Assembly: GCF_000759475.1 (NCBI RefSeq)
Contig: NZ_CP009454.1
Span: 992,001-1,056,000, forward strand
Length of the DNA: 64,000 bases
Direction of reading: 5' to 3'
Source of the DNA: Pantoea rwandensis
Lineage (GTDB): Bacteria > Pseudomonadota > Gammaproteobacteria > Enterobacterales > Enterobacteriaceae
The translations under genes and the position numbers were made by a program. Positions 19,047 to 39,082 of this stretch are shown one piece after another (within the stretch, counting starts at the first letter, position 1; each line of letters begins with the position of its first letter). Below the pieces are notes generated by a model, which worked only from the letters and a program-made list of their open reading frames with translations, was not told the DNA's origin and did not search any database.

Positions 19047-19056
19047 ATAAAAACAC

Positions 19057-19069
19057 CGTCCATTGGACG
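19057..19069. repeat. Left target-site duplication of IS4-like copy A
   Basis: CGTCCATTGGACG, repeated at 20491-20503. It is itself palindromic and formed the stem and loop of the original terminator shared by ytfP and ppa. Confidence 0.93.
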
Positions 19070-19126
19070 TAATGCCGATCAGTTAAGACAAAAATGATCG
19101 GTTGAACGATCCGGCAGTTCTGCAAG

Positions 19127-19160
19127 AATCCGTAATCTCTCAGGGATTACGGATTTTTTT
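19127..19160 (+). terminator. Terminator-like hairpin abutting the transposase start
   Basis: Perfect 11 bp stem AATCCGTAATC / GATTACGGATT with loop TCTCAGG, followed by T residues that run straight into the ATG at 19161. It would stop readthrough transcription from outside, or hide the start codon, limiting transposase made from external promoters. The same structure is present in copy B at 28488-28521. Confidence 0.85.
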
Positions 19161-20477
19161 ATGCTTCTCAGTCAGGCTCTCGATATTGTTCATAACTTTA
19201 CTCCTCAGGAGTTCTCGACGCTTTCTGATCTCCTTTCTCCTGAACTTATTGACGAGTGTCTCGCGGATACCGGGACAGTAACGTTACGAAAGCGCCGGTT
19301 ATCGATGGAAATGATGGTCTGGGCAGTGACCGGCATGGCACTTTTTCGCTCCCATTCGATGACTCAGCTCGTCTCTCACCTGGATATTCTTCTGCCGGGA
19401 AAAAGGCCCTTTGTTGCGCCCAGCGCGGTTGTGCAGGCCCGGCAGCGATTTGGCGAAGATGTTATCCGATTAATGTTTGAGAAAACGCAGCGCCTGTGGT
19501 TTGAAAAGACACCGTTGTCGCACTGGAACGGACTGACTCTGATGGCGGTGGATGGCACCGTATGGCGTACCCCTGACACACCAGAGAATGATGCCGCCTT
19601 CGGGCGAACGGCCAATATTAATAAGTGCTCTGAGTGGCCGCAGGTGCGAATGGTCTGTCAGATGGAAGTCACCAGTCACCTGCTGTCAGCAGCAGCGTTC
19701 GACAGCGTCTCAGCTGTCGGCGAAGCCGATCTTGCCGCTCAGCTTATCCCACAGACCCCCGACCACTCTCTGACCCTCTTTGATAAAGGTTTTTATGCGC
19801 TGGGTCTGCTGCACGCCTGGCAGTCAGCGGGAACGGAAAGACACTGGATGCTGCCGCTGCGCAAAGGAGCACAGTACCGTGTAATCCGTAGCTTAGGGGC
19901 CGGGCAGGCGTTGGTGGAATTACAGCTGTCGCCGCAGGCGAAGAAAAAATGGCAGGGTGCTGCGGACACGCTGACGGCAAGGCTTATCAGCAAAGAACTC
20001 AACGGAAAAACGGTTCAAATCCTGACATCCATGTGCGACCCCCTGAGGTATCCCAAAGCAGATGTCGTGGATTTATACGGCCATCGCTGGGAAATAGAGC
20101 ATGGGTTCCGCGAGATGAAACAACACCTGCTGAATAATGAGCTGACGCTGAGAAGCAAAAAGCCAGAACTTGTGCGTCAGGAGCTGTGGGGCGTGGTCCT
20201 GGCCTATAACCTTCTGAGGTTCATGATGGCGCAGATGGCGTACAGCCTGAAAGGCGTGGAACCTTATCAGATGAGTTTTAAGCAGTCCGCACTGTATCTG
20301 AGAAGTCATCTGAGCCTGCTACCGGGCATCTCACCGGGAAAAATACCGCGGATAATGGAAGAGATAATGGCGATGGCGCCAGGGCTGGTGCTGCCGGAAA
20401 GAAGAGTGCGGCATTACCCAAGGGCGGTAAAAAAGAAGCCGCAACGTTATCCGTTGCGGCCTCCATTAAGATCTTAA
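19161..20477 (+). CDS. IS4-family transposase (copy A)
   Basis: 438 residues. An N-terminal DUF4372-like segment ([29 protein letters not shown]) is followed by a DDE nuclease domain: first Asp in [10 protein letters not shown], second in LFDKGFY, and the Glu in the IS4 signature Y-(2)-R-(3)-E-(6)-K, seen here as [15 protein letters not shown]. The frame is intact, so the protein may be active. There is no Shine-Dalgarno; a terminator T tract touches the ATG. This start aligns with E. coli IS4 InsG, which begins the same way. Confidence 0.96.
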
Positions 20478-20490
20478 CTGACAAGCATTA

Positions 20491-20503
20491 CGTCCATTGG
20501 ACG
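20491..20503. repeat. Right target-site duplication of IS4-like copy A
   Basis: CGTCCATTGGACG, identical to 19057-19069. It is followed by GTG and seven T residues, the remaining tail of the interrupted terminator. Confidence 0.93.
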
Positions 20504-27145: not shown

Positions 27146-27157
27146 CGCCTGTTGGCG
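27146..27157. repeat. Left target-site duplication of IS4-like copy B
   Basis: CGCCTGTTGGCG, repeated at 28579-28590. It was the upper stem and loop of the original mpl/darP terminator (GGGTCGCC-TGTT-GGCGACCC with flanking A and T runs). Confidence 0.93.
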
Positions 27158-28578
27158 TAATGCTTGTCAGTTAAGATCTTAATGGAGGCCGCAACGGATA
27201 ACGTTGCGGCTTCTTTTTTACCGCCCTTGGGTAATGCCGCACTCTTCTTTCTGGCAGCACCAGCCCTGGCGCCATCGCCATTACCTCTTCCATTATCCGC
27301 GGTATTTTTCCCGGTGAGATGCCCGGTAGCAGGCTCAGATGACTTCTCAGATACAGTGCGGACTGCTTAAAACTCATCTGATAAGGTTCCACGCCTTTCA
27401 GGCTGTACGCCATCTGCGCCATCATGAACCTCAGAAGGTTATAGGCTAGGACCACGCCCCACAGCTCCTGACGCACAAGTTCTGGCTTTTTGCTTCTCAG
27501 CGTCAGCTCATTATTCAGCAGGTGTTGTTTCATCTCGCGGAACCCATGCTCTATTTCCCAGCGATGGCCGTATAAATCCACGACATCTGCTTTGGGATAC
27601 CTCAGGGGATCGCACATGGATGTCAGGATTTGAACCGTTTTTCCGTTGAGTTCTTTGCTGATAAGCCTTGCCGTCAGCGTGTCCGCAGCACCCTGCCATT
27701 TTTTCTTCGCCTGCGGCGACAGCTGTAATTCCACCAACGCCTGCCCGGCCCCTAAGCTACGGATTACACGGTACTGTGCTCCTTTGCGCAGCGGCAGCAT
27801 CCAGTGTCTTTCCGTTCCCGCTGACTGCCAGGCGTGCAGCAGACCCAGCGCATAAAAACCTTTATCAAAGAGGGTCAGAGAGTGGTCGGGGGTCTGTGGG
27901 ATAAGCTGAGCGGCAAGATCGGCTTCGCCGACAGCTGAGACGCTGTCGAACGCTGCTGCTGACAGCAGGTGACTGGTGACTTCCATCTGACAGACCATTC
28001 GCACCTGCGGCCACTCAGAGCACTTATTAATATTGGCCGTTCGCCCGAAGGCGGCATCATTCTCTGGTGTGTCAGGGGTACGCCATACGGTGCCATCCAC
28101 CGCCATCAGAGTCAGTCCGTTCCAGTGCGACAGCGGTGTCTTTTCAAACCACAGGCGCTGCGTTTTCTCAAACATTAACCGGATAACATCTTCTCCAAAT
28201 CGCTGCCGGGCCTGCACAACCGCGCTGGGCGCAACAAAGGGCCTTTTCCCCGGCAGAAGGATATCCAGGTGTGAGACGAGCTGAGTCATCGAATGGGAGC
28301 GAAAAAGTGCCATGCCCGTCACTGCCCAGACCATCATTTCCATCGACAACCTGCGCTTACGTAACGTTACTGTCCCGGTATCCGCGAGACACTCGTCAAT
28401 AAGTTCAGGAGAAAGGAGATCAGAAAGCGTCGAGAACTCCTGAGGAGTAAAGTTATGAACAATATCGAGAGCCTGACTGAGAAGCATAAAAAAATCCGTA
28501 ATCCCTGAGAGATTACGGATTCTTGCAGAACTGTTGGATCGTTCAACCGATCATTTTTGTCTTAACTGATCGGCATTA
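27158..28578 (-). mobile_element. IS4-family insertion sequence, copy B (1421 bp)
   Basis: Same length and 18-bp terminal repeats as copy A but inverted, with a 12 bp direct repeat. The two copies differ at several positions: two near the transposase-start end, several silent changes in the coding region, and one Ile/Val change (MEEIMAM in A, MEEVMAM in B). It is inserted in the loop of the terminator between convergent mpl and darP. The matching repeats on each side show that no recombination between the two IS copies has exchanged flanks. Confidence 0.95.
27171..28487 (-). CDS. IS4-family transposase (copy B)
   Basis: 438 residues, nearly identical to the copy A protein, with the same intact DDE residues and Y-(2)-R-(3)-E-(6)-K signature. 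The start codon again touches the T tract of a perfect hairpin (28488-28521) with no Shine-Dalgarno. The intact frame suggests that it could still be functional. Confidence 0.96.
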
Positions 28579-28590
28579 CGCCTGTTGGCG
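28579..28590. repeat. Right target-site duplication of IS4-like copy B
   Basis: CGCCTGTTGGCG, identical to 27146-27157, followed by ACCCTTTTT, the remaining half of the original terminator. Confidence 0.93.
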
Positions 28591-28614
28591 ACCCTTTTTA
28601 TGCACGCGGTAAAC

Positions 28615-31457: not shown

Positions 31458-31796
31458 GTGAGGAGTGAAGCTGTCCCACTGAAACAGAGCACGCCGGAAG
31501 CCATTCAGGCGCTGGCGGATAACGTGATGAAGCAAATTGCGGCGATCTACGCTGCGCACCACATCGAAGCCAACGCCGTGCAGCAGCAGATGCTGGCCTC
31601 GCATGTGCGGGCGATGGCAGCGCGTTCGCTCACGGGTGAAGCCTTGCCGGAAGTGGAAGCCGAACTGTTTGAAGACATCTCGCCAGAAACCATGGCGCTG
31701 GCACAGCAGGTGGTCGATCTGTTTGGCAATCTGCCAAAAGAAGAAGCCTGGCTGCTATCGGTGCATATCGAAGTGGCGAAATCCAACGAAGCATAA
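31458..31796 (+). CDS. Stand-alone PRD-domain protein
   Basis: 112 residues from the GTG with AGGAG seven bases ahead; a TTG at 31431 in the same frame is less likely. The whole protein resembles a single PTS regulation domain, with His49 (SHVRAM) and His103 (SVHIEVA) at the positions where PRDs are phosphorylated by HPr or EIIB. No helix-turn-helix is present, so it is not itself a transcription factor. It opens the operon 17 bases before the SFCGS gene. I infer that it passes PTS phosphorylation state to the transporter or to the regulator at 37172. No function has been shown, to my knowledge. Confidence 0.78.
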   Translation: MRSEAVPLKQSTPEAIQALADNVMKQIAAIYAAHHIEANAVQQQMLASHVRAMAARSLTGEALPEVEAELFEDISPETMALAQQVVDLFGNLPKEEAWLLSVHIEVAKSNEA

Positions 31797-31813
31797 ATCG
31801 AGAGGAATTGAAC

Positions 31814-32170
31814 ATGGTAACAGTCGTGATTGGTGATCGTCTGGGTAAAGGTCAGAAAGTCGCAGCAGGGATTGAGAAAGCAGGCGGCCGTGCTGTTGTG
31901 GTGCCGGGCGTTGCAGCGGACATGAAGCTGGGCGATGTGATGAAAGCGGAAAACGCTGACTTCGGCATCTCTTTCTGCGGCAGCGGCGGTGCCGGTGCCA
32001 TCACTGCGCAAAACAAATATGGCTACAAAGCCAAACACGGTATGCGTTCGATTGATGAAGGCGTGACCGCCATCAACGAAGGCGCCACCGTGCTGGGCTT
32101 TGGCTTTATGGATAAAGAAGAGCTGGGTGAACGTCTGGTGCAGGCCTGGAATAAAAAACACGGCAGCTAA
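31814..32170 (+). CDS. Glycine-rich SFCGS-family protein (DUF2620-like)
   Basis: 118 residues starting MVTVVIGDRLGKGQKVAAG. The family signature is intact: ADFGISFCGSGGAGA with Cys55, then NKYGYKAKHGMRS. It is soluble and has no signal peptide. The Cys followed by a Gly/Ser-rich loop right after a beta strand resembles the phospho-Cys loop of PTS EIIB domains; this likeness is inference, not a recognised homology. It is related to YhfU of the E. coli yhf cluster. Two bases separate it from the DUF4312 gene. Confidence 0.85.
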   Translation: MVTVVIGDRLGKGQKVAAGIEKAGGRAVVVPGVAADMKLGDVMKAENADFGISFCGSGGAGAITAQNKYGYKAKHGMRSIDEGVTAINEGATVLGFGFMDKEELGERLVQAWNKKHGS

Positions 32171-32172
32171 GC

Positions 32173-32472
32173 ATGAAACAGCAATACGAGACGCAGGTTA
32201 CGGTGCAGGGCAAAGGCGATAGCAAAGCGAAAGCCTTTTCCGATGCACTGAGCAAGGTGCAGCAGCAAGTGCTGCGCACCAGCCAAAAGATTCTGTTGCG
32301 CATTGAACCCATAGATGTGCGGGTGCTGCGCGCGCAGGAGAGCGTACGCACAGAGAAGTTCTTGTTCTTCTTTCTGGCGCGCGAACGACGGAATTACAGC
32401 GTCGAGCTGGAAATCACCGTCAGCGTCACCGTGATCGACACCGACAAGGTGGATTTCATCGCGACGAAATAA
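32173..32472 (+). CDS. DUF4312-family protein
   Basis: 99 residues, soluble. It starts MKQQYETQVTVQGKGDSKAK and has alternating beta strands (ILLRIEPIDVRVL, YSVELEITVSVTVID) around a short hydrophobic stretch (FLFFFLARE). The fold looks like a small alpha/beta sandwich of dodecin or translocation-subunit type, but I recognise it only as DUF4312 by sequence and context. It always travels with the SFCGS, DUF4311 and DUF4310 genes. Function unknown. Confidence 0.82.
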   Translation: MKQQYETQVTVQGKGDSKAKAFSDALSKVQQQVLRTSQKILLRIEPIDVRVLRAQESVRTEKFLFFFLARERRNYSVELEITVSVTVIDTDKVDFIATK

Positions 32473-32497
32473 AAACGACAACAAAGGGTACAACAAC

Positions 32498-33274
32498 ATG
32501 TTTTTAATCATTTTGTTTAAGTCGTTGATCATTGGTGGATTGGTTGGCGTTGGGGTAGGAGCGGGCGCAGCGCGCATGTTCCATGCACCGACCACGCAAG
32601 GTATGGGCGCGTTTCGTACCTTGGGTGAACTCAATTCCTGTGAGGGCGATCCCGCTTCGCACTTCTCCTTTGGTCTTGGCTTCTTCTTTAACGCCTGGGC
32701 ATCGTCTGTGGCTGCAGGTTCCTTCACTCAGGACGTTGATCACCGCATTCTGCCTAACTGGGGCGCAGCCGCGTTGATGGTGAAAAACCGCAACGTCGCC
32801 GAAACCCTGCATAACCCAAAACGCATGGCGATTGCCTGCGGCATCATCGGCATGATCGTGGTGGCGTTCCTCAACAGCACGGCTTCTGCGGTGCCTGCAG
32901 CGTTGCAGGTTACGGCGGTTAAAGTGCTGGTGCCGGCGGCCAACCTGCTGGTGAACACCGTGATGCCGGTGATCTTCTGGCTGGCAGCGATTGATGCCGG
33001 TAAGAAATCCGGTTTCTGGGCGACCATCTTTGGTGGTCTGGCGCAGTTGATCATGGGCAATGCCGTACCGGGTCTGGTGCTGGGTATCCTGATTGGTAAA
33101 GGCGTGGAAGAGAGCGGCTGGAACAAAGTCACCAAAGTGATGATGTTCGCGATTGTGCTGCTGTTCGCTCTGAGCGGCTTCTTCCGTGGCTTCGATATGA
33201 AGCTGCTGCAATCCTTCCAACTTGGCATTCCTGGCTGGCTGGACATGATTCACAACAGCCTGAGCGGCAAATAA
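32498..33274 (+). CDS. DUF4311-family membrane protein
   Basis: 258 residues. An N-terminal membrane segment is very rich in Gly and Val (IIGGLVGVGVGAGAARMF). A soluble loop follows with the conserved GELNSCEGDPASHFSFGLGF and VDHRILPNWGAA, then about four more membrane segments (about 108-130, 140-165, 175-200, 213-232). Probably half of a two-subunit transporter with the DUF4310 protein 12 bases downstream. No recognisable transporter motif and no PTS EIIC signature. Confidence 0.82.
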   Translation: MFLIILFKSLIIGGLVGVGVGAGAARMFHAPTTQGMGAFRTLGELNSCEGDPASHFSFGLGFFFNAWASSVAAGSFTQDVDHRILPNWGAAALMVKNRNVAETLHNPKRMAIACGIIGMIVVAFLNSTASAVPAALQVTAVKVLVPAANLLVNTVMPVIFWLAAIDAGKKSGFWATIFGGLAQLIMGNAVPGLVLGILIGKGVEESGWNKVTKVMMFAIVLLFALSGFFRGFDMKLLQSFQLGIPGWLDMIHNSLSGK

Positions 33275-33286
33275 GGAGCCTTGAGA

Positions 33287-33934
33287 ATGAACGAGACCGA
33301 AAACAAAGGGTTCTGGTACGCCGACTGGTCTTTCCCGATCTTTGTTGGCCTGCTGTCCGCCGGGGTGTTTGCCGGTACGCACATGTACTACCTGTACGGC
33401 ATCGGCGCATTTAACGAAGTGGCGTTTGTTTCAATGCTGCGTTCCGGCATGGAAACCGGCGTGTATGGCGCCGTGGCGGCGTTTGGTGCCAGCTTCCTGT
33501 TTGCTCGCATCATCGAAGGTTCGCTGGTCGGGATTCTGGATATCGGCGGCGCGATTCAAACCGGTGTCGGGCTGGGCGTTCCCGCTTTACTGCTGGGCGC
33601 GGGCATCGTGTTCCCGGTGGCGAACTTTGCGGCATCACTGGCAACGGGCCTGGTGGTGGGTTTAGCCATTGGCTATCTGATTATCCTGGCGCGTAAGTTC
33701 ACCATCAATCAGAGCGACTCCACTTACGGTGCGGACGTGATGATGGGTGCAGGTAATGCTTCCGGCCGCTTCCTTGGGCCGTTGATTATCCTGTCTGCGA
33801 TGGCGGCATCGATTCCCATCGGCCTCGGTTCGCTGGTGGGTGCGCTGTTGTTTTATCTGTGGAACAAACCGATCACCGGTGGCGCGATTTTAGGTGCCAT
33901 GGCGTTAGGCGCGATGTTCCCGGTTTCTCTCTGA
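33287..33934 (+). CDS. DUF4310-family membrane protein
   Basis: 215 residues from ATG 33287, which has AAGGAG eight bases ahead; a TTG at 33281 is possible but too close. It has about six hydrophobic segments, Gly-rich, with HMYYLYGIGAFNEVAFVSML, DIGGAIQTGVGLGVPALLLG and a C-terminal GAILGAMALGAMFPVSL. With DUF4311 it probably forms the membrane channel or carrier of the system. The transported compound is unknown; the downstream enzymes suggest an acylated amino-sugar acid. Confidence 0.82.
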   Translation: MNETENKGFWYADWSFPIFVGLLSAGVFAGTHMYYLYGIGAFNEVAFVSMLRSGMETGVYGAVAAFGASFLFARIIEGSLVGILDIGGAIQTGVGLGVPALLLGAGIVFPVANFAASLATGLVVGLAIGYLIILARKFTINQSDSTYGADVMMGAGNASGRFLGPLIILSAMAASIPIGLGSLVGALLFYLWNKPITGGAILGAMALGAMFPVSL

Positions 33935-33950
33935 TTTTTTTGTGTTACCA

Positions 33951-34147
33951 GGTCGCCATTAATGGCGACCCTACAACTGTTCGACATGTTTTGAAGGGCG
34001 AGAGCCGATTGTGGCTAGTCGTTTTTAGGGTCTGCAGTCGGTTGTGGCTAGTGGTTTGTGGGGCCGGCAGTTGATTGTGAATAATGGTTTGTAGGGTCTG
34101 CAATCAATCGTGGCTAGTGTTTTGTAGGGTGCGCATTTATGCGCACC
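33951..34147. repeat. 33-bp tandem repeats between two REP-like palindromes, inside the operon
   Basis: Left border: palindrome GGTCGCCAT-TA-ATGGCGACC plus CTAC (33951-33974). Then four degenerate 33-bp units begin at 34009, 34042, 34075 and 34108, each starting TTGTGGCTAGT or a close variant and ending in a (G)TAGGGTCTGCA-like block. Right border: GTAG plus palindrome GGTGCGCAT-TT-ATGCGCACC (34124-34147). It separates the transporter genes from the enzyme genes, 28 bases before the amidohydrolase start. Inside an mRNA these structures could block exonucleases or attenuate transcription. Confidence 0.75.
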
Positions 34148-34174
34148 TCGCAGAATGCACGTTAAGGAGTAAAT

Positions 34175-35308
34175 ATGTTTGATTTGATTCTGCGCCGCGC
34201 GCGTTTGTGCGACGAACAGCTGGTGGATATCGCCATCCAGCAGGGCAAAATTGTCGCGGTCGGCGACGTCAGCGGTTCAGCTCAGCAGGAGCGCGATTTA
34301 GAGGGGCGCTATTACGTCAGCGCAGGCTGGATTGACAGCCACGTGCACTGCTATCCCAAATCCCCCATTTATCACGATGAAGCCGATGCGATTGGCATGG
34401 CGCAGGGCGTCACTACCGTGGTTGATGCAGGCAGCACCGGCGCGGATCATATCGACGATTTCTATCAGCTCACCCGTTCCGCCATCACCGAAGTGCGCGC
34501 GCTGATCAACATCTCACGCACCGGCATCATCACCCAGAACGAGCTGGCCGATATGGCGCAGATTGACGGTGAGGCCGTGGTGCAGGCGGTGAAACGTCGC
34601 CCGGACTTTATCGTGGGGCTGAAAGCGCGCATGAGCAGCAGCGTGGTGGGTGAGAATGGCATTCAGCCGCTGATTCGCGCCAAAGCTATTCAGCAGGCGG
34701 CGGGAAATCTGCCACTGATGGTGCATATCGGCAACAATCCGCCGGTGCTGGAAGAGATTGCCGATCTGCTCACTTCCGGCGACATCATTACTCACTGCTT
34801 TAACGGCAAACCAAACCGCATTCTTTCACCACAGGGTGAGTTGAAAGCGGCAGTGAAAAACGCCATCGCGCGTGGCGTAAAACTGGATATCGGCCACGGC
34901 AGTGCCAGCTTCAGCTTTGAAGTGGCCCGTCAGGCCATCGCGCAGGGCATTCTGCCCGACACCATCAGTTCGGACATTTATTGTCGCAACCGCATCAACG
35001 GCCCGGTACATAGCCTGGCGCACGTGATGTCGAAATTCTTCAGCATTGGCATGACGCTGCCGCAGGTTATCGACTGCGTCACCGGCAATGCCGCGGCTGG
35101 CCTGCGCTTAGCGGGCAAAGGGCGCTTAACAGAAGGTTATGACGCCGACCTGACCATTTTTACCGTCAAAGAGGAAGCCCGCCCGTTCGTCGATGCTGAA
35201 GGCGAACGGATTTTGGGTGAGCAACATTTGCTGCCGCTGGCCGTGGTTATCACGGGTAAGTGGCATCTGACTGATGAAGGGAAAGCTAATCATGTCTTCG
35301 ATTTATGA
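34175..35308 (+). CDS. Amidohydrolase/deacetylase-family metallohydrolase
   Basis: 377 residues of the dihydroorotase-like amidohydrolase superfamily (EF_0837/AHA_3915 group). The metal ligands are all visible: His56 and His58 (DSHVH), carbamylated-Lys candidate Lys150 (VGLKARMS), His184 (MVHIG), His207 (ITHCF) and Asp267 (SSDIY). This predicts a binuclear zinc-type hydrolase of an amide bond. In this operon it probably removes an acyl group from the nitrogen of the imported compound before DgaE acts. AAGGAG precedes the ATG. It overlaps the dgaE-like gene by 17 bases. Confidence 0.9.
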   Translation: MFDLILRRARLCDEQLVDIAIQQGKIVAVGDVSGSAQQERDLEGRYYVSAGWIDSHVHCYPKSPIYHDEADAIGMAQGVTTVVDAGSTGADHIDDFYQLTRSAITEVRALINISRTGIITQNELADMAQIDGEAVVQAVKRRPDFIVGLKARMSSSVVGENGIQPLIRAKAIQQAAGNLPLMVHIGNNPPVLEEIADLLTSGDIITHCFNGKPNRILSPQGELKAAVKNAIARGVKLDIGHGSASFSFEVARQAIAQGILPDTISSDIYCRNRINGPVHSLAHVMSKFFSIGMTLPQVIDCVTGNAAAGLRLAGKGRLTEGYDADLTIFTVKEEARPFVDAEGERILGEQHLLPLAVVITGKWHLTDEGKANHVFDL

Positions 35309-36413
35309 AAAATATGACCTGAAACAGGTCATCAATGCCTCCGGTCGTATGACCATTCTGGGTGTTTCAACGCCGTCTGCCGATGTGGTGGAGACCGTCA
35401 GCTACGGTTTGAATCACTATTTCGAGATCAAAGATCTGGTCAACAAAACCGGCGCCTACATCGCTAAATTGCTGGATGTGGAAAATGCGGTGGTGGTTTC
35501 CTGCGCCTCTGCGGGCATCGCACAGAGCGTGGCGGCGGTGATCGTCAAAGATAACGACTGGCTGCTGGACAACCTGCATGCCGCGCCGCTGACGGTGCCG
35601 CACGATATCGTGGTGCCGAAAGGCCATAACGTGAACTTCGGTGCGCCGGTAGGTGCGATGGTGGCGCTGGGCGGCGGACGTCTGGTGGAGGCTGGTTACA
35701 GCAACGAATGTTCGCCTGAACAGCTGGCTGCCGCCATCACGCCCACCACGGCGGCGCTGCTGTACATCAAATCACACCACTGTGTGCAGAAGAGCCACCT
35801 GAGTGTGGAGCAGGCGGCGGTGGTCGCGCGTCAACACGGTATCCCGTTAATCGTGGATGCGGCGGCAGAAGAAGATCTGCAGTGCTACTACCAAATGGGC
35901 GCGGACCTGGTGATCTACAGCGGCGCCAAGGCGATCGAAGGGCCGACCAGCGGTCTGGTGATTGGCCGCACTCAGTACGTTGAGTGGGTCAAACGTCAAA
36001 GCAACGGTATAGGCCGCGCGATGAAAGTCGGTAAAGAGGGCATTCTTGGTCTGACGCAGGCGATTGAAAACTATCTGGTGCAGCCGAAAACCACCGGTGC
36101 AGAGATGGTGGCCAACATGACGCCGTTTATCGACAACCTCAATACGCTGAATGGTGTGTCCGCACGCGTAGTGTGGGATGCGGCAGGCCGCGATATCGCC
36201 CGTGCTGAGATCAAGTTCGATGAAGCCGTCACACAATGGCCAACTGGCGAGCTGGTGCAGGCGTTGAAAACCGGCGACATCGCGATCTACTTCCGTGGCT
36301 ACAAGGCCAATGAAGGCATTATCGAAGCCGACGTGCGCAGCGTCAGCGCCGATCAGTTGCATATTATCTTTAGCCGTATCCAGGCGTTACTCAGCGGAGG
36401 AAAACGCGCATGA
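35292..36413 (+). CDS. dgaE: DgaE-family ammonia-lyase (SelA-like PLP enzyme)
   Basis: 373 residues. A fold-type I PLP enzyme of the selenocysteine synthase-like group, with Schiff-base Lys213 (YSGAKAIEGP), cofactor-binding Asp in PLIVDAAAEED, and CASAGIAQSVAA. Salmonella DgaE converts D-glucosaminate-6-phosphate to 2-keto-3-deoxygluconate-6-phosphate and ammonia. The pairing with DgaF supports the same chemistry here, although the exact stereoisomer may differ. The ATG at 35292 is chosen for the family start MSSIYEKYDLKQVINASG. A 4-base overlap with dgaF couples translation. Confidence 0.87.
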   Translation: MSSIYEKYDLKQVINASGRMTILGVSTPSADVVETVSYGLNHYFEIKDLVNKTGAYIAKLLDVENAVVVSCASAGIAQSVAAVIVKDNDWLLDNLHAAPLTVPHDIVVPKGHNVNFGAPVGAMVALGGGRLVEAGYSNECSPEQLAAAITPTTAALLYIKSHHCVQKSHLSVEQAAVVARQHGIPLIVDAAAEEDLQCYYQMGADLVIYSGAKAIEGPTSGLVIGRTQYVEWVKRQSNGIGRAMKVGKEGILGLTQAIENYLVQPKTTGAEMVANMTPFIDNLNTLNGVSARVVWDAAGRDIARAEIKFDEAVTQWPTGELVQALKTGDIAIYFRGYKANEGIIEADVRSVSADQLHIIFSRIQALLSGGKRA

Positions 36414-37147
36414 GTCTGAACCCGAATTTTTATCAGGGCCGTCTGTGCCTCAACGTGCTGGCCGGTTCTAAGCAGAACGCCAAAGAGATCTGGCAGGCCG
36501 CAGAAGGCCACGTGCTGGTGGGCGTGTTATCAAAAAATTACGCGAGCAATGAAGAAGCGATTGCTGATATGCGCGAGTACGCGGCGCTGATCGACAACGC
36601 GCTGTCCGTCGGACTGGGCGCGGGCGATCCTAATCAGTCGGCGATGGTGAGTGAGATCTCAGCGGTGCTGCAACCGCAGCATGTGAACCAGGTGTTTACC
36701 GGTGTGGCGACCAGCCGCGCGCTGCTCGGGCAGAATCACACCGTGGTCAACGGTCTGATTTCGCCAACCGGCACGCCGGGCCTGGTGAAAATTTCCACCG
36801 GACCGCGCAGCTCACAGCTGGAAGATGCGATCGTGCCGATCGACAGCGCCATCGCCATGCTGCAGGACATGGGTGGCAGTTCGGTGAAATACTTCCCGAT
36901 GGGCGGCTTAAAAGCGGTGAATGAGTACCGTGCCGTTGCTGAAGCCTGTGCGCGTCACGACTTCTGGCTGGAACCGACCGGCGGCATCGATCTCAATAAC
37001 TTCGAAGCCATTGTGCAGATTGCACTCGATGCGGGCGTCAGCAAAGTGATTCCACACGTCTATAGTTCGATCATCGACAGTGCCACTGGCGACACGCGCA
37101 TTGACGATGTGCGTCAGCTTCTAGCAACGTGCAAGAAACTGCTGTAA
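36410..37147 (+). CDS. dgaF: DgaF-family 2-dehydro-3-deoxy-phosphogluconate aldolase
   Basis: 245 residues, KDGP aldolase of the DgaF (DUF4072) type, with a TIM-barrel pattern: FYQGRLCLNVLAGS, GVLSKNYASN, TPGLVKISTGPRSS (Lys candidate for the Schiff base), VKYFPMGGLKAVNEY (a second candidate Lys) and LEPTGGIDL. It would split 2-keto-3-deoxy-6-phosphogluconate to pyruvate and glyceraldehyde-3-phosphate. The ATGA overlap with dgaE and the regulator starting 24 bases later place it at the end of the catabolic block. Confidence 0.88.
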   Translation: MSLNPNFYQGRLCLNVLAGSKQNAKEIWQAAEGHVLVGVLSKNYASNEEAIADMREYAALIDNALSVGLGAGDPNQSAMVSEISAVLQPQHVNQVFTGVATSRALLGQNHTVVNGLISPTGTPGLVKISTGPRSSQLEDAIVPIDSAIAMLQDMGGSSVKYFPMGGLKAVNEYRAVAEACARHDFWLEPTGGIDLNNFEAIVQIALDAGVSKVIPHVYSSIIDSATGDTRIDDVRQLLATCKKLL

Positions 37148-37171
37148 CAAACGAGTCACAGGTGAAGCTCC

Positions 37172-39082
37172 GTGAGATTTCCCAATCAGCGTCTGGCCCA
37201 ACTTTTCGCTGCGCTGCAAAACGAAACGCTGCCGCAGGATGAGCTGGCGCGCCGCTTTTCTGTTTCAACGCGCACGGTGCGCACCGATATCACCGCACTG
37301 AATGCACTGCTGGAGCAACACGGCGCACAGTTCGTACTGGCGCGCGGCGCGGGATATCAGCTGAAGATCGACGATGTGGCGCTTTTTGACCGTCTGCAGG
37401 AAGAGAGTGCCGCGCCGCTGCGCGTGCCGCGCACTTCTCAGGATCGCGTGCGCTATTTGCTCACGCGTTTTCTCACCGCCGCCTATTCTCTCAAGCTGGA
37501 AGACCTGTCGGAAGAGTGGTTTGTCAGCCGCGCCACCCTGCAAAGCGATATGGCGGAAGTGCGCGAGTGGCTGGGCCGCTATCATCTGAATATCGAAACC
37601 AAACCGCATTACGGCATGAAGTTGTTCGGCAGCGAAGCGGCGATCCGCACCTGCCTGACGGATTTGCTGTGGCAGATTGATCAGGAGATGCCTGATAGCC
37701 CGCTGTTGACGGTGGAAGCGCTGCACAGCGGCATCCTGGCACAGCTGGAACCGCTGTTGCAGCACTGTTTTAATCAGTATGCGATTCGCCTGAGCGATGA
37801 GGGTGAGCGCTATCTGCAAATTTACTGTGCGGTGGCGGTGCGACGCATCAGCGAAGGTTTCCCGCTCAACGATCCCGGCGCGGAAGATGTCGGTGAAGAG
37901 GTGCGCGAAGCCGCGCATCATCTGGTGAATCTGATGCAGCCGCTGGTCGGCAAACCGATCTCGCAGGCGGAAGAGAACTGGCTGCGCGTCAATATCGCCG
38001 CCCGGCAGATTCAGGCGCTGTCGCCCAGCACCATTAATGCTGATGATGCCGATGCGCTGGTCGACTACCTGCTGAACTACATCAACACCCATTACAACTA
38101 CCGCTTGCAGCAGGATGAGCAGCTGCGAGCCGATCTGCTCACCCATATCAAAACTATGATTACCCGGGTGCGCTACCAGATTCACATCCCCAATCCGCTG
38201 CTGAGTAACATCAAACAGCACTATCCGATGGCTTATGACGTGACGCTGGCGGCGGTGACCAGCTGGGGAAAATACACGCCCTATAGCATCAGCGAGAACG
38301 AAATCGGTTTTCTGGTGCTGCACATCGGTGTCGGGCTGGAGCGGCATTACGATGTCGGCTATCAACGCCATCCGCAGGTGCTGCTGGTGTGCGACAGCGG
38401 CAACTCCACACTGCGCATGATTGAAGCGCTGCTGCTGCGTAAATATCCGCAGTTGGTGGTCACGGCGCGTTTGTCGCAGCGTGATTACGAGATGCGCAAA
38501 CACATCGACGAAGATTTCGTGATTTCCACCGTGCGTTTGAGTGAGAAGAATAAGCCAATTGCGGTGATGTCACCGTTCCCGACCGAGTTCCAGCTGGAGC
38601 AGTTGGGCAAGCTGGTGCTGGTGGATCGCACGCGGCCTTACATGCTGGAAAAATATTTCGATGCACAGCACTTTATGGTGCTGGATAAGCCAATGACGCA
38701 ATCCGCGCTGTTCCGCGTGTTGTGCGATCAGCTGGAGTCAGAAGGCTGTGTGGATGCGGACTTTTATCCCTCCGTTGAAGAGCGAGAAGCGATTGTCAGC
38801 ACCCTGCTTGGCGAAGGCATTGCGCTGCCACACTCACTGGGATTGCTGGCGAAGAAAACCGTGGTGTATACCGTACTGGCGCCGCATGGCGTGAGCTGGG
38901 GTGATGAAACCGCTTCGGTGATTTTCCTGCTAGCGATCAGCAAAAGCGAATACGAAGAGGCGATGGCGATTTACGATCTGTTCGTCACCTTCCTGCGGGA
39001 GAGGGCGATGACCCGATTGCGCGATTGCGCGGATTTCGTCAGCTTTAAAGCGGTGGCGATCGATTGTCTCAGCCGGATGTGA
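37172..39082 (+). CDS. MtlR/LicR-type activator: HTH, PRD, EIIB and EIIA domains
   Basis: 636 residues from a GTG with AGGTGA ahead. In order: an N-terminal HTH_11 (DELARRFSVSTRTVRTDITA), a second Mga-like HTH (EWFVSRATLQSDMAEVREWL), two PRDs (about 190-390), a Gat-type EIIB domain with Cys407 (VLLVCDSGNSTLRM), and a C-terminal EIIA domain with His554 (GIALPHSLG). Such DNA-binding activators are switched by PTS phosphorylation. It is therefore the likely regulator of this operon. It is unlike DgaR, the LevR-type sigma-54 activator of the Salmonella dga genes, so the control differs. No PTS permease is encoded nearby. Confidence 0.9.
   Translation: MRFPNQRLAQLFAALQNETLPQDELARRFSVSTRTVRTDITALNALLEQHGAQFVLARGAGYQLKIDDVALFDRLQEESAAPLRVPRTSQDRVRYLLTRFLTAAYSLKLEDLSEEWFVSRATLQSDMAEVREWLGRYHLNIETKPHYGMKLFGSEAAIRTCLTDLLWQIDQEMPDSPLLTVEALHSGILAQLEPLLQHCFNQYAIRLSDEGERYLQIYCAVAVRRISEGFPLNDPGAEDVGEEVREAAHHLVNLMQPLVGKPISQAEENWLRVNIAARQIQALSPSTINADDADALVDYLLNYINTHYNYRLQQDEQLRADLLTHIKTMITRVRYQIHIPNPLLSNIKQHYPMAYDVTLAAVTSWGKYTPYSISENEIGFLVLHIGVGLERHYDVGYQRHPQVLLVCDSGNSTLRMIEALLLRKYPQLVVTARLSQRDYEMRKHIDEDFVISTVRLSEKNKPIAVMSPFPTEFQLEQLGKLVLVDRTRPYMLEKYFDAQHFMVLDKPMTQSALFRVLCDQLESEGCVDADFYPSVEEREAIVSTLLGEGIALPHSLGLLAKKTVVYTVLAPHGVSWGDETASVIFLLAISKSEYEEAMAIYDLFVTFLRERAMTRLRDCADFVSFKAVAIDCLSRM

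Follow-up and report, generated by a model that had tools for sequence, protein, structure and literature searches.

A conserved nine-gene operon of Pantoea rwandensis that may import and degrade an acylated amino-sugar acid through a DUF4310/DUF4311 membrane module

The systems closest to the operon described here are the dga genes of Salmonella and the yhf operon of Escherichia coli. Salmonella dga combines a permease of the sugar phosphotransferase system (PTS), DgaABCD, with a DgaE-family lyase that carries a second active-site histidine and a cluster of arginines, and with a DgaF-type 2-keto-3-deoxy-6-phosphogluconate (KDPG) aldolase. The E. coli yhf operon (yhfZ-yhfY-yhfX-yhfW-php-yhfU-yhfT-yhfS) encodes a small PRD protein (YhfY), a probably RpiB-like protein with a cysteine loop (YhfU, DUF2620), a membrane protein (YhfT), a pyridoxal phosphate (PLP) enzyme and a phosphotriesterase-family protein. 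Here we analysed a 64,000-nucleotide stretch of Pantoea rwandensis DNA (the window), which lies at C1:992001-1056000 of a 4.33 Mb single-contig genome (labelled G000). Nine of its genes (31458-39082) have in common with dga the lyase with its second histidine and arginine cluster, the aldolase and a link to the PTS. In place of DgaABCD, however, they encode a module of the membrane proteins DUF4310 and DUF4311, with no enzyme II (EII) among the nine proteins; the operon also adds a deacylase, and its DgaE-type protein scores below the cut-off of the lyase equivalog.

We tentatively favour a model in which these genes form an operon that controls its own expression and serves the breakdown of an N-acylated 2-amino-2-deoxy-aldonic acid, with N-acetyl-D-glucosaminate as the leading candidate. 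DUF4311 and DUF4310 would form an inner-membrane permease, with a glycine-rich SFCGS protein, a DUF4312 protein and a small PRD protein as its soluble partners, and the phosphoryl group would come from the general PTS (phosphoenolpyruvate (PEP), enzyme I (EI) and HPr), most likely at the level of this module. The amidohydrolase would strip the acyl group, the DgaE-type lyase would form a 2-keto-3-deoxy acid by eliminating water and ammonia, and the phosphorylated form of this acid would be cleaved by the DgaF-type aldolase to pyruvate and glyceraldehyde-3-phosphate. A protein with helix-turn-helix (HTH), PRD, EIIB-like and EIIA parts would activate the operon from an upstream palindrome. We favour this model because the gene order is conserved and the same set recurs in Bartonella and, with insertions, in Enterococcus; because the module is the only transport candidate in the run and an HPr-EI gene follows the regulator in both Bartonella plasmids; because the histidines of the small PRD protein and the SFCGS cysteine are invariant and the EIIA histidine of the regulator nearly so; and because the arginines that dock the substrate phosphate in the Salmonella lyase are retained, the DgaF-type protein passes a KDPG-aldolase cut-off and a lactonase accompanies the operon in many loci.

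All nine genes reported in a sequence-only reading of the window proved intact, in the order given there and on one strand (Table 1). That reading had them tightly together, which holds for most intergenic distances (17, 2, 25, 12, 240, -17, -4 and 24 nt in gene order) and fails for the 240 nt separating the DUF4310 gene from the amidohydrolase gene; within this gap a 33-nt unit is repeated imperfectly, in three to four copies (window 33996-34127). An NCBIfam cut-off is passed by eight of the nine proteins (TIGR03582, 03577, 03578, 03580, 03579, 03583, 01437 and 03581), while the regulator matches no NCBIfam family above cut-off. Seven of these families (TIGR03582, 03577, 03578, 03580, 03579, 03583 and 03581) are encoded together, each above cut-off, and by these matches the operon is a member of the EF_0829-EF_0839/AHA_3910-3917 conserved cluster (NCBIfam hypothetical equivalogs). 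Since the family names themselves read EF_0829-EF_0839/AHA_3910-3917, the cluster has already been recognised as conserved, with its function left blank. A literature search, thin on subscription papers, found no functional study of the DUF/SFCGS module; one article notes duplicated dgaEF genes in E. faecalis V583 (PMC7396535).

When GTDB species genomes were scanned for DUF4311 relatives, 501 encoding places emerged, of which the best 80 were analysed. This survey showed all nine genes collinear and on one strand in 78 of the 80 loci, an arrangement that is not due to chance. In the remaining two (L004 and L080) only the first five genes were matched and the fetched stretch ends at a contig end, ~0.8 and 0.3 kb beyond the DUF4311 gene. 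The names on the 80 loci are all ones that we take to be Enterobacterales, so the sample is skewed towards near kin. Gaps above 400 bp are absent among the first eight genes in the 78 loci, and 26 loci have one between the DgaF and regulator genes. A lactonase gene lies in 23 of these; the others hold open reading frames (ORFs) that lack hydrophobic segments and measure 587 and 151 aa (L049), no ORF of 100 aa (L052) or an antisense ORF only (L064). Because the large gaps without lactonase hold no ORF with a hydrophobic segment, no other permease was found inside the nine-gene run in the 78 loci, leaving the DUF module as the sole transport candidate there.

A connection to the PTS is seen on two plasmids of Bartonella sp. 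HY406 and HY761 (55.7 and 55.9 kb), which carry all nine genes. HPr and EI are the energy-coupling proteins of the PTS, and a 671-residue HPr-EI fusion is encoded directly 3' of the regulator in both cassettes, where it may power either the regulator or the module, or both. No other transporter occurs among the cassette genes; the HY406 plasmid has major facilitator superfamily and ATP-binding cassette genes outside the cassette. The gene tables, which are incomplete, list neither a kinase nor an EII gene for the two cassette stretches or for the remainder of the HY406 plasmid. Among the best 25 of 193 records, the nearest plasmid relatives of the fusion (54-55% identical) come from Caballeronia and Paraburkholderia, and in the annotated one of two records examined such a relative adjoins a ptsG EIIBC gene. 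The Bartonella cassette (L093, L094, L141) adjoins type VI secretion genes, and both plasmids have their replication and partition genes duplicated in inverted order.

The enzyme set fits the proposed deacylation followed by DgaE/DgaF-type breakdown, and its catalytic residues are conserved. Conservation was counted over alignment rows, each a distinct ORF that passed length and identity filters, with the window included and failing loci dropped. The amidohydrolase, earlier described as intact and binuclear, indeed passes its family cut-off and retains the full metal site, with ligands H56, H58, K150, H207 and D267 in 82 of 82 rows and H184 in 81. Its relatives in the PDB are 8wzy, 2ics and 2ogj, and work by Ornelas in 2013 reportedly showed the 2ogj group to act on acetyl-(R)-mandelate. 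By analogy, the R centre handled by such a deacylase would match C2 of D-glucosaminate, which supports an N-acyl-glucosaminate without proving it. The DgaF-type protein, with PDB relatives 3m0z and 3lm7, qualifies as a KDPG aldolase, as the description 'DgaF-like' had implied.

In the DgaE-type enzyme the PLP lysine is present in 81 of 81 rows. According to its published description (PMC9529869), the Salmonella enzyme, D-glucosaminate-6-phosphate ammonia lyase (DGL), uses His163 as proton donor, and manual docking placed the phosphate of its substrate near Arg301, Arg332 and Arg346. These three arginines align with R304, R335 and R349 here, and His163 aligns with the second histidine of an SHH motif, in each case in 81 of 81 rows (the first histidine in 79).

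The nature of the substrate is further suggested by the PF10282-type lactonase encoded between the DgaF and regulator genes in 23 of the 78 loci. Those of its N-termini that were inspected by eye resemble signal peptides, and an enzyme of this kind outside the cytoplasm would suit an aldonic acid that reaches the cell in lactone form. No operon-type lactonase is present in P. rwandensis itself, whose two PF10282 proteins are both encoded elsewhere in the genome; one of them, with a signal-like start, adjoins what we take to be an enolase-type dehydratase-like gene. The substrate could instead be a different acylated amino-sugar derivative, for example a muramate-type or glycoside-linked sugar, from which the acid arises inside the cell. 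This proposal draws on an Enterococcus faecalis plasmid copy of the EF_0829-EF_0839 cluster, in which the regulator comes first, unlike in the window, and which additionally encodes a lactose/cellobiose-type EIIC, a small hydrophobic protein without family match and a MupG-type 6-phospho-N-acetylmuramidase. However, no such insertion occurs in the run in the 78 loci or in the Bartonella cassettes, and the lactonase speaks for an aldonic acid that is formed outside the cytoplasm; we consider this origin of the substrate quite improbable. In the E. faecalis record the DgaF gene is split into two overlapping ORFs (L092:18573-19315).

As the sequence-only reading stated, no kinase or PTS permease is found among the nine proteins by family (Pfam, NCBIfam). 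Its conclusion, that either the substrate arrives phosphorylated or the DUF module phosphorylates it, does not necessarily follow: the absent kinase is no obstacle, because the P. rwandensis genome encodes a true 2-keto-3-deoxygluconate (KDG) kinase elsewhere (KdgK, C1:358582-359499; 525 bits, cut-off 400) and in the E. faecalis cluster DgaF is followed by a gene for a PfkB kinase that matches KDG-kinase-like families best, in every case below cut-off. This chromosomal KdgK is one of several points that weigh against the model we favour. Given KdgK, the E. faecalis EIIC and the KDG-kinase-like gene, phosphorylation may come later than import. The DgaE-type protein passes the TIGR01437 family, which upholds the label 'DgaE-like' in that sense, but falls short of the D-glucosaminate-6-phosphate lyase equivalog NF047797 (371 bits against 600); since the Enterococcus (370) and Bartonella (359) proteins score alike, the DgaE of this cluster forms a separate branch. 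The arginine cluster also occurs in PDB 8t7j and so is no proof of a phosphorylated substrate. The Bartonella HPr-EI could serve the PTS-type regulator alone, the SFCGS protein looks, if anything, RpiB-like rather than EIIB-like by profile comparison, and a transport role of DUF4310 and DUF4311 is presumed.

Taken together, several of these points lend weight to an alternative with the same substrate and enzymes, in which import leaves the substrate unphosphorylated. The module would then be a secondary, ion-coupled transporter, free D-glucosaminate would be converted by DgaE to 2-keto-3-deoxygluconate and this in turn by the chromosomal KdgK to KDPG, the substrate of DgaF, and the PTS would only regulate. 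The strength of the KdgK match, the kinase gene placed right after DgaF in E. faecalis and the low score of DgaE against the 6-phosphate lyase family all speak for it. Against these stand the phosphate-docking arginine cluster of Salmonella DGL, kept in every row, and the Bartonella cassettes, which add HPr-EI while no kinase is annotated there or on the HY406 plasmid. We regard unphosphorylated import as possible, if rather doubtful.

The membrane proteins themselves give few clues. DUF4311 and DUF4310 have five hydrophobic segments each (simple window), DUF4311 has no match in the PDB up to E 10 and DUF4312 none to E 1. Module genes 2-5 match no PTS family by Pfam or NCBIfam; gene 1 encodes the small PRD protein, and EIIA is found in the regulator only. 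Potential phosphorylation residues are fixed: the small PRD protein has His49 and His103 in all 91 rows, and SFCGS its cysteine (Cys55) in all 80. A paralogous origin of DUF4311 and DUF4310 was considered and dropped: an alignment of fusions placed most DUF4310 rows on DUF4311, and profile comparison was unsupportive. Fusions of DUF4311 to DUF4310 do occur in the protein collection (P0035, P0073, P0088, P0094), with junctions that resemble assembly deletions.

The SFCGS protein may be related to sugar-phosphate isomerases. While 30 of 35 SFCGS members match LacAB_rpiB (PF02502), all do so below cut-off (best E 0.0012), and 13 match DUF2620 as against 17 for the unrelated family DUF1685. In single-pair hhalign comparisons, SFCGS met an RpiB-type profile (11 RpiB-type loci, one without sequence dropped) at E 0.0036 and 9% probability, against 0.18-0.54 for six unrelated controls, and met YhfU at E 0.0057 or 0.02 depending on direction (6% and 2%; 0.012 with an earlier setting). 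YhfU and RpiB aligned at E 4.6e-6 and 87%, against 0.25-0.78 for unrelated profiles. A PDB search with the SFCGS profile had no RpiB among its matches, while the YhfU profile gave 15 weak matches, two of them named ribose/galactose isomerase. The Cys-Gly-Thr-Gly loop of RpiB/LacAB isomerases aligns with the cysteine of both SFCGS and YhfU. These comparisons suggest that YhfU is probably and SFCGS possibly RpiB-like, although, unlike true RpiB/LacAB proteins, SFCGS stays below family cut-offs, reaches only 9% hhalign probability and retrieves no RpiB by PDB profile.

This resemblance to isomerases, which is weak for SFCGS, opens a further alternative: that the DUF4310/4311/4312/SFCGS/PRD set is a membrane sensor or a substrate-handling membrane enzyme and that the substrate enters through another permease. 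The separate EIIC of the E. faecalis cluster and the lack of a PDB match for DUF4311 would agree with such a role. On the other hand, two membrane proteins with small soluble partners have a permease-like layout, and no other transporter is found within the run in the 78 loci or among the Bartonella cassette genes. We judge a sensor or enzyme role hardly less improbable than the muramate-type or glycoside-linked substrate considered above.

Returning to phosphorylation by the general PTS, a more specific and rather unlikely form of it is an unrecognised class of PTS permease. Phosphoryl groups would pass from PEP through EI and HPr to a histidine of the PRD protein, on to the cysteine of an RpiB-derived SFCGS protein and then to a sugar acid passing DUF4311/DUF4310, with yhf (YhfY, YhfU, YhfT) as a second branch of the class. 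The stand-alone PRD protein would then serve to carry phosphate and not to regulate. YhfY appears to be weakly related to the small PRD protein: its match to TIGR03582 (E 1.6e-6, 28 bits) stays short of the cut-off of 69, and with our own small-PRD profile three of five YhfY proteins scored at E<0.001, the others at 0.07 and 4.6 and the window's regulator at 7.2. Because of this relationship and the RpiB resemblance of YhfU and, more weakly, of SFCGS, yhf may be a sister system of the window module. In contrast to the two window proteins with five segments each, YhfT is a single protein with ~12 hydrophobic segments; it does not resemble DUF4311 or DUF4310 in sequence (0.5% and 4.9% probability by hhalign), and the idea of YhfT as a fused DUF4311-DUF4310 found no profile support. 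The yhf operon also has no DUF4312, and YhfS is not similar to DgaE by blastp. Within the order, YhfT was found in 9 of 247 genomes; in four of the five places that were read, out of nine, the yhf genes stand together. In the fifth (L121:7000-8355) the YhfT relative has no yhf neighbours and no other yhf match occurs in 15 kb. In another study (PMC7513527), a Lactobacillus rhamnosus PRD protein, a DUF2620 protein and a membrane protein have consecutive accession numbers, which hints at the same trio in that species.

The regulator was described as a PRD/EIIB/EIIA protein. Pfam supports the PRD and EIIA parts, while the EIIB part has no family match, its cysteine motif being recognised by eye. 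The PRD His384 is present in 82 of 82 rows, EIIA His554 in 81 and the EIIB-like Cys407 in 80. A palindrome with the consensus TTTCCACTTYGAAGTGGAAA lies 87-239 bp 5' of the first gene. It was found at <=4 mismatches in 94 of 98 loci and at <=3 in 84; the 98 count some genomes, including the window's own, more than once. It was missed at <=4 mismatches in L018, L030, L051 and the E. faecalis locus L092, and the Bartonella version, TTTCCGTTTTGTAGCGGAAA, has 4 mismatches. Elsewhere across the 98 loci there are 7 matches at <=3 mismatches. The window has 2 matches (one site, both strands) against 0.03 expected, a number reached in 1 of 100 shuffles, and the whole genome contains the palindrome once, besides one 3-mismatch site. 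The latter was rejected as a regulon site, as it lies inside an aldolase-like ORF and a reversed control also gave one match per strand. An alignment of 21 upstream regions shows, by eye, a weak -35/-10-like pattern after the palindrome, and a sigma-70 scan predicted no promoter at the site 3' of it. The palindrome TTTCCACTTTGAGGTGGAAA is likely the operator bound by the operon's own regulator.

Table 1. Features of the operon, in window coordinates
Feature	Position	Strand	Details
Palindrome TTTCCACTTTGAGGTGGAAA	31349..31368	.	putative operator of the operon's own regulator
Small stand-alone PRD protein, EF_0829/AHA_3910 family	31458..31796	+	GTG start; TIGR03582 125 bits, cut-off 69
SFCGS glycine-rich protein	31814..32170	+	TIGR03577 221 bits, PF14272; Cys in SFCGSGGAG; possibly RpiB-like
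DUF4312 small soluble protein	32173..32472	+	TIGR03578 130 bits, PF14189
DUF4311 membrane protein, presumed permease subunit	32498..33274	+	TIGR03580 505 bits, PF14188
DUF4310 membrane protein, presumed second permease subunit	33287..33934	+	TIGR03579 384 bits, PF14187
Amidohydrolase/deacetylase, EF_0837 type, likely N-deacylase	34175..35308	+	TIGR03583 553 bits, cut-off 432
DgaE-family PLP-dependent ammonia lyase	35292..36413	+	TIGR01437 584 bits, cut-off 385; NF047797 371, cut-off 600
DgaF-type KDPG aldolase	36410..37147	+	NF047796 388 bits, cut-off 300; TIGR03581 402 bits
Regulator with HTH, PRD, EIIB-like and EIIA parts	37172..39082	+	GTG start; Pfam HTH_11, Mga, PRD, PTS_EIIA_2

The module is widely distributed. 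Whole-genome search of overlapping phylum samples found DUF4311 in 7 of 299 and 12 of 398 genomes (own genome counted), and in 1 of 369 in a class-wide sample, that one being the window's own, while SFCGS occurs in 22 of 24 genomes of the genus and, elsewhere in the order, in none of 16. Of 8000 candidates scored for each family, 1426 DUF4311 and 1269 DUF4310 proteins passed as members. The best 120 per protein search include Enterococcus, Vagococcus, Carnobacterium, lactobacilli, Vibrio, Photobacterium, Chromobacterium and Microvirga, and the names listed for the module families also include Enterobacterales, Aeromonas and many Lactobacillales, to which the Bartonella plasmids are to be added. 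None of 316 pattern-matching stretches of viral contigs encodes a relative, no relative was found in E. coli genomes by blastn, and at E 1e-20 no control genome gives a DUF4311 signal. A DUF4311 signal in E. coli and weak second matches in two other genomes were set aside; the one of them that was read (L090) looked by eye like a DjlA/J-domain gene with a Gly-rich membrane helix, a chance match. A Lactococcus lactis control genome has an SFCGS family match below cut-off. Neither the amidohydrolase nor the DgaE gene gave a match in Aeromonas caviae KAM479, where one ORF (L096:9789-10346) joins the start of the DUF4310 match to a partial DgaF match in a deletion-like manner; this hybrid counts as one row of the DUF4310 set.

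Elsewhere in the window, a pair of 438-aa genes stands in inverted orientation (19047-20492 and 27156-28601), with arms of 1446 nt that are 98% complementary and enclose 6.7 kb; by eye, the genes read as transposase-like.

Overall, the observation made in the sequence-only reading is confirmed and its interpretation is supported in part, to which the Bartonella HPr-EI gene, the palindrome and the parallel with yhf are added here. Because the palindrome, the HPr-EI link and the invariant histidines and cysteine have been identified, the competing readings can be tested directly. The module is common among bacteria. Should it prove to be a transporter, it would add to the permease families known for amino-sugar acids; should it be driven by the PTS, it would represent a new PTS class and would provide a testable function for the E. 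coli yhf operon.

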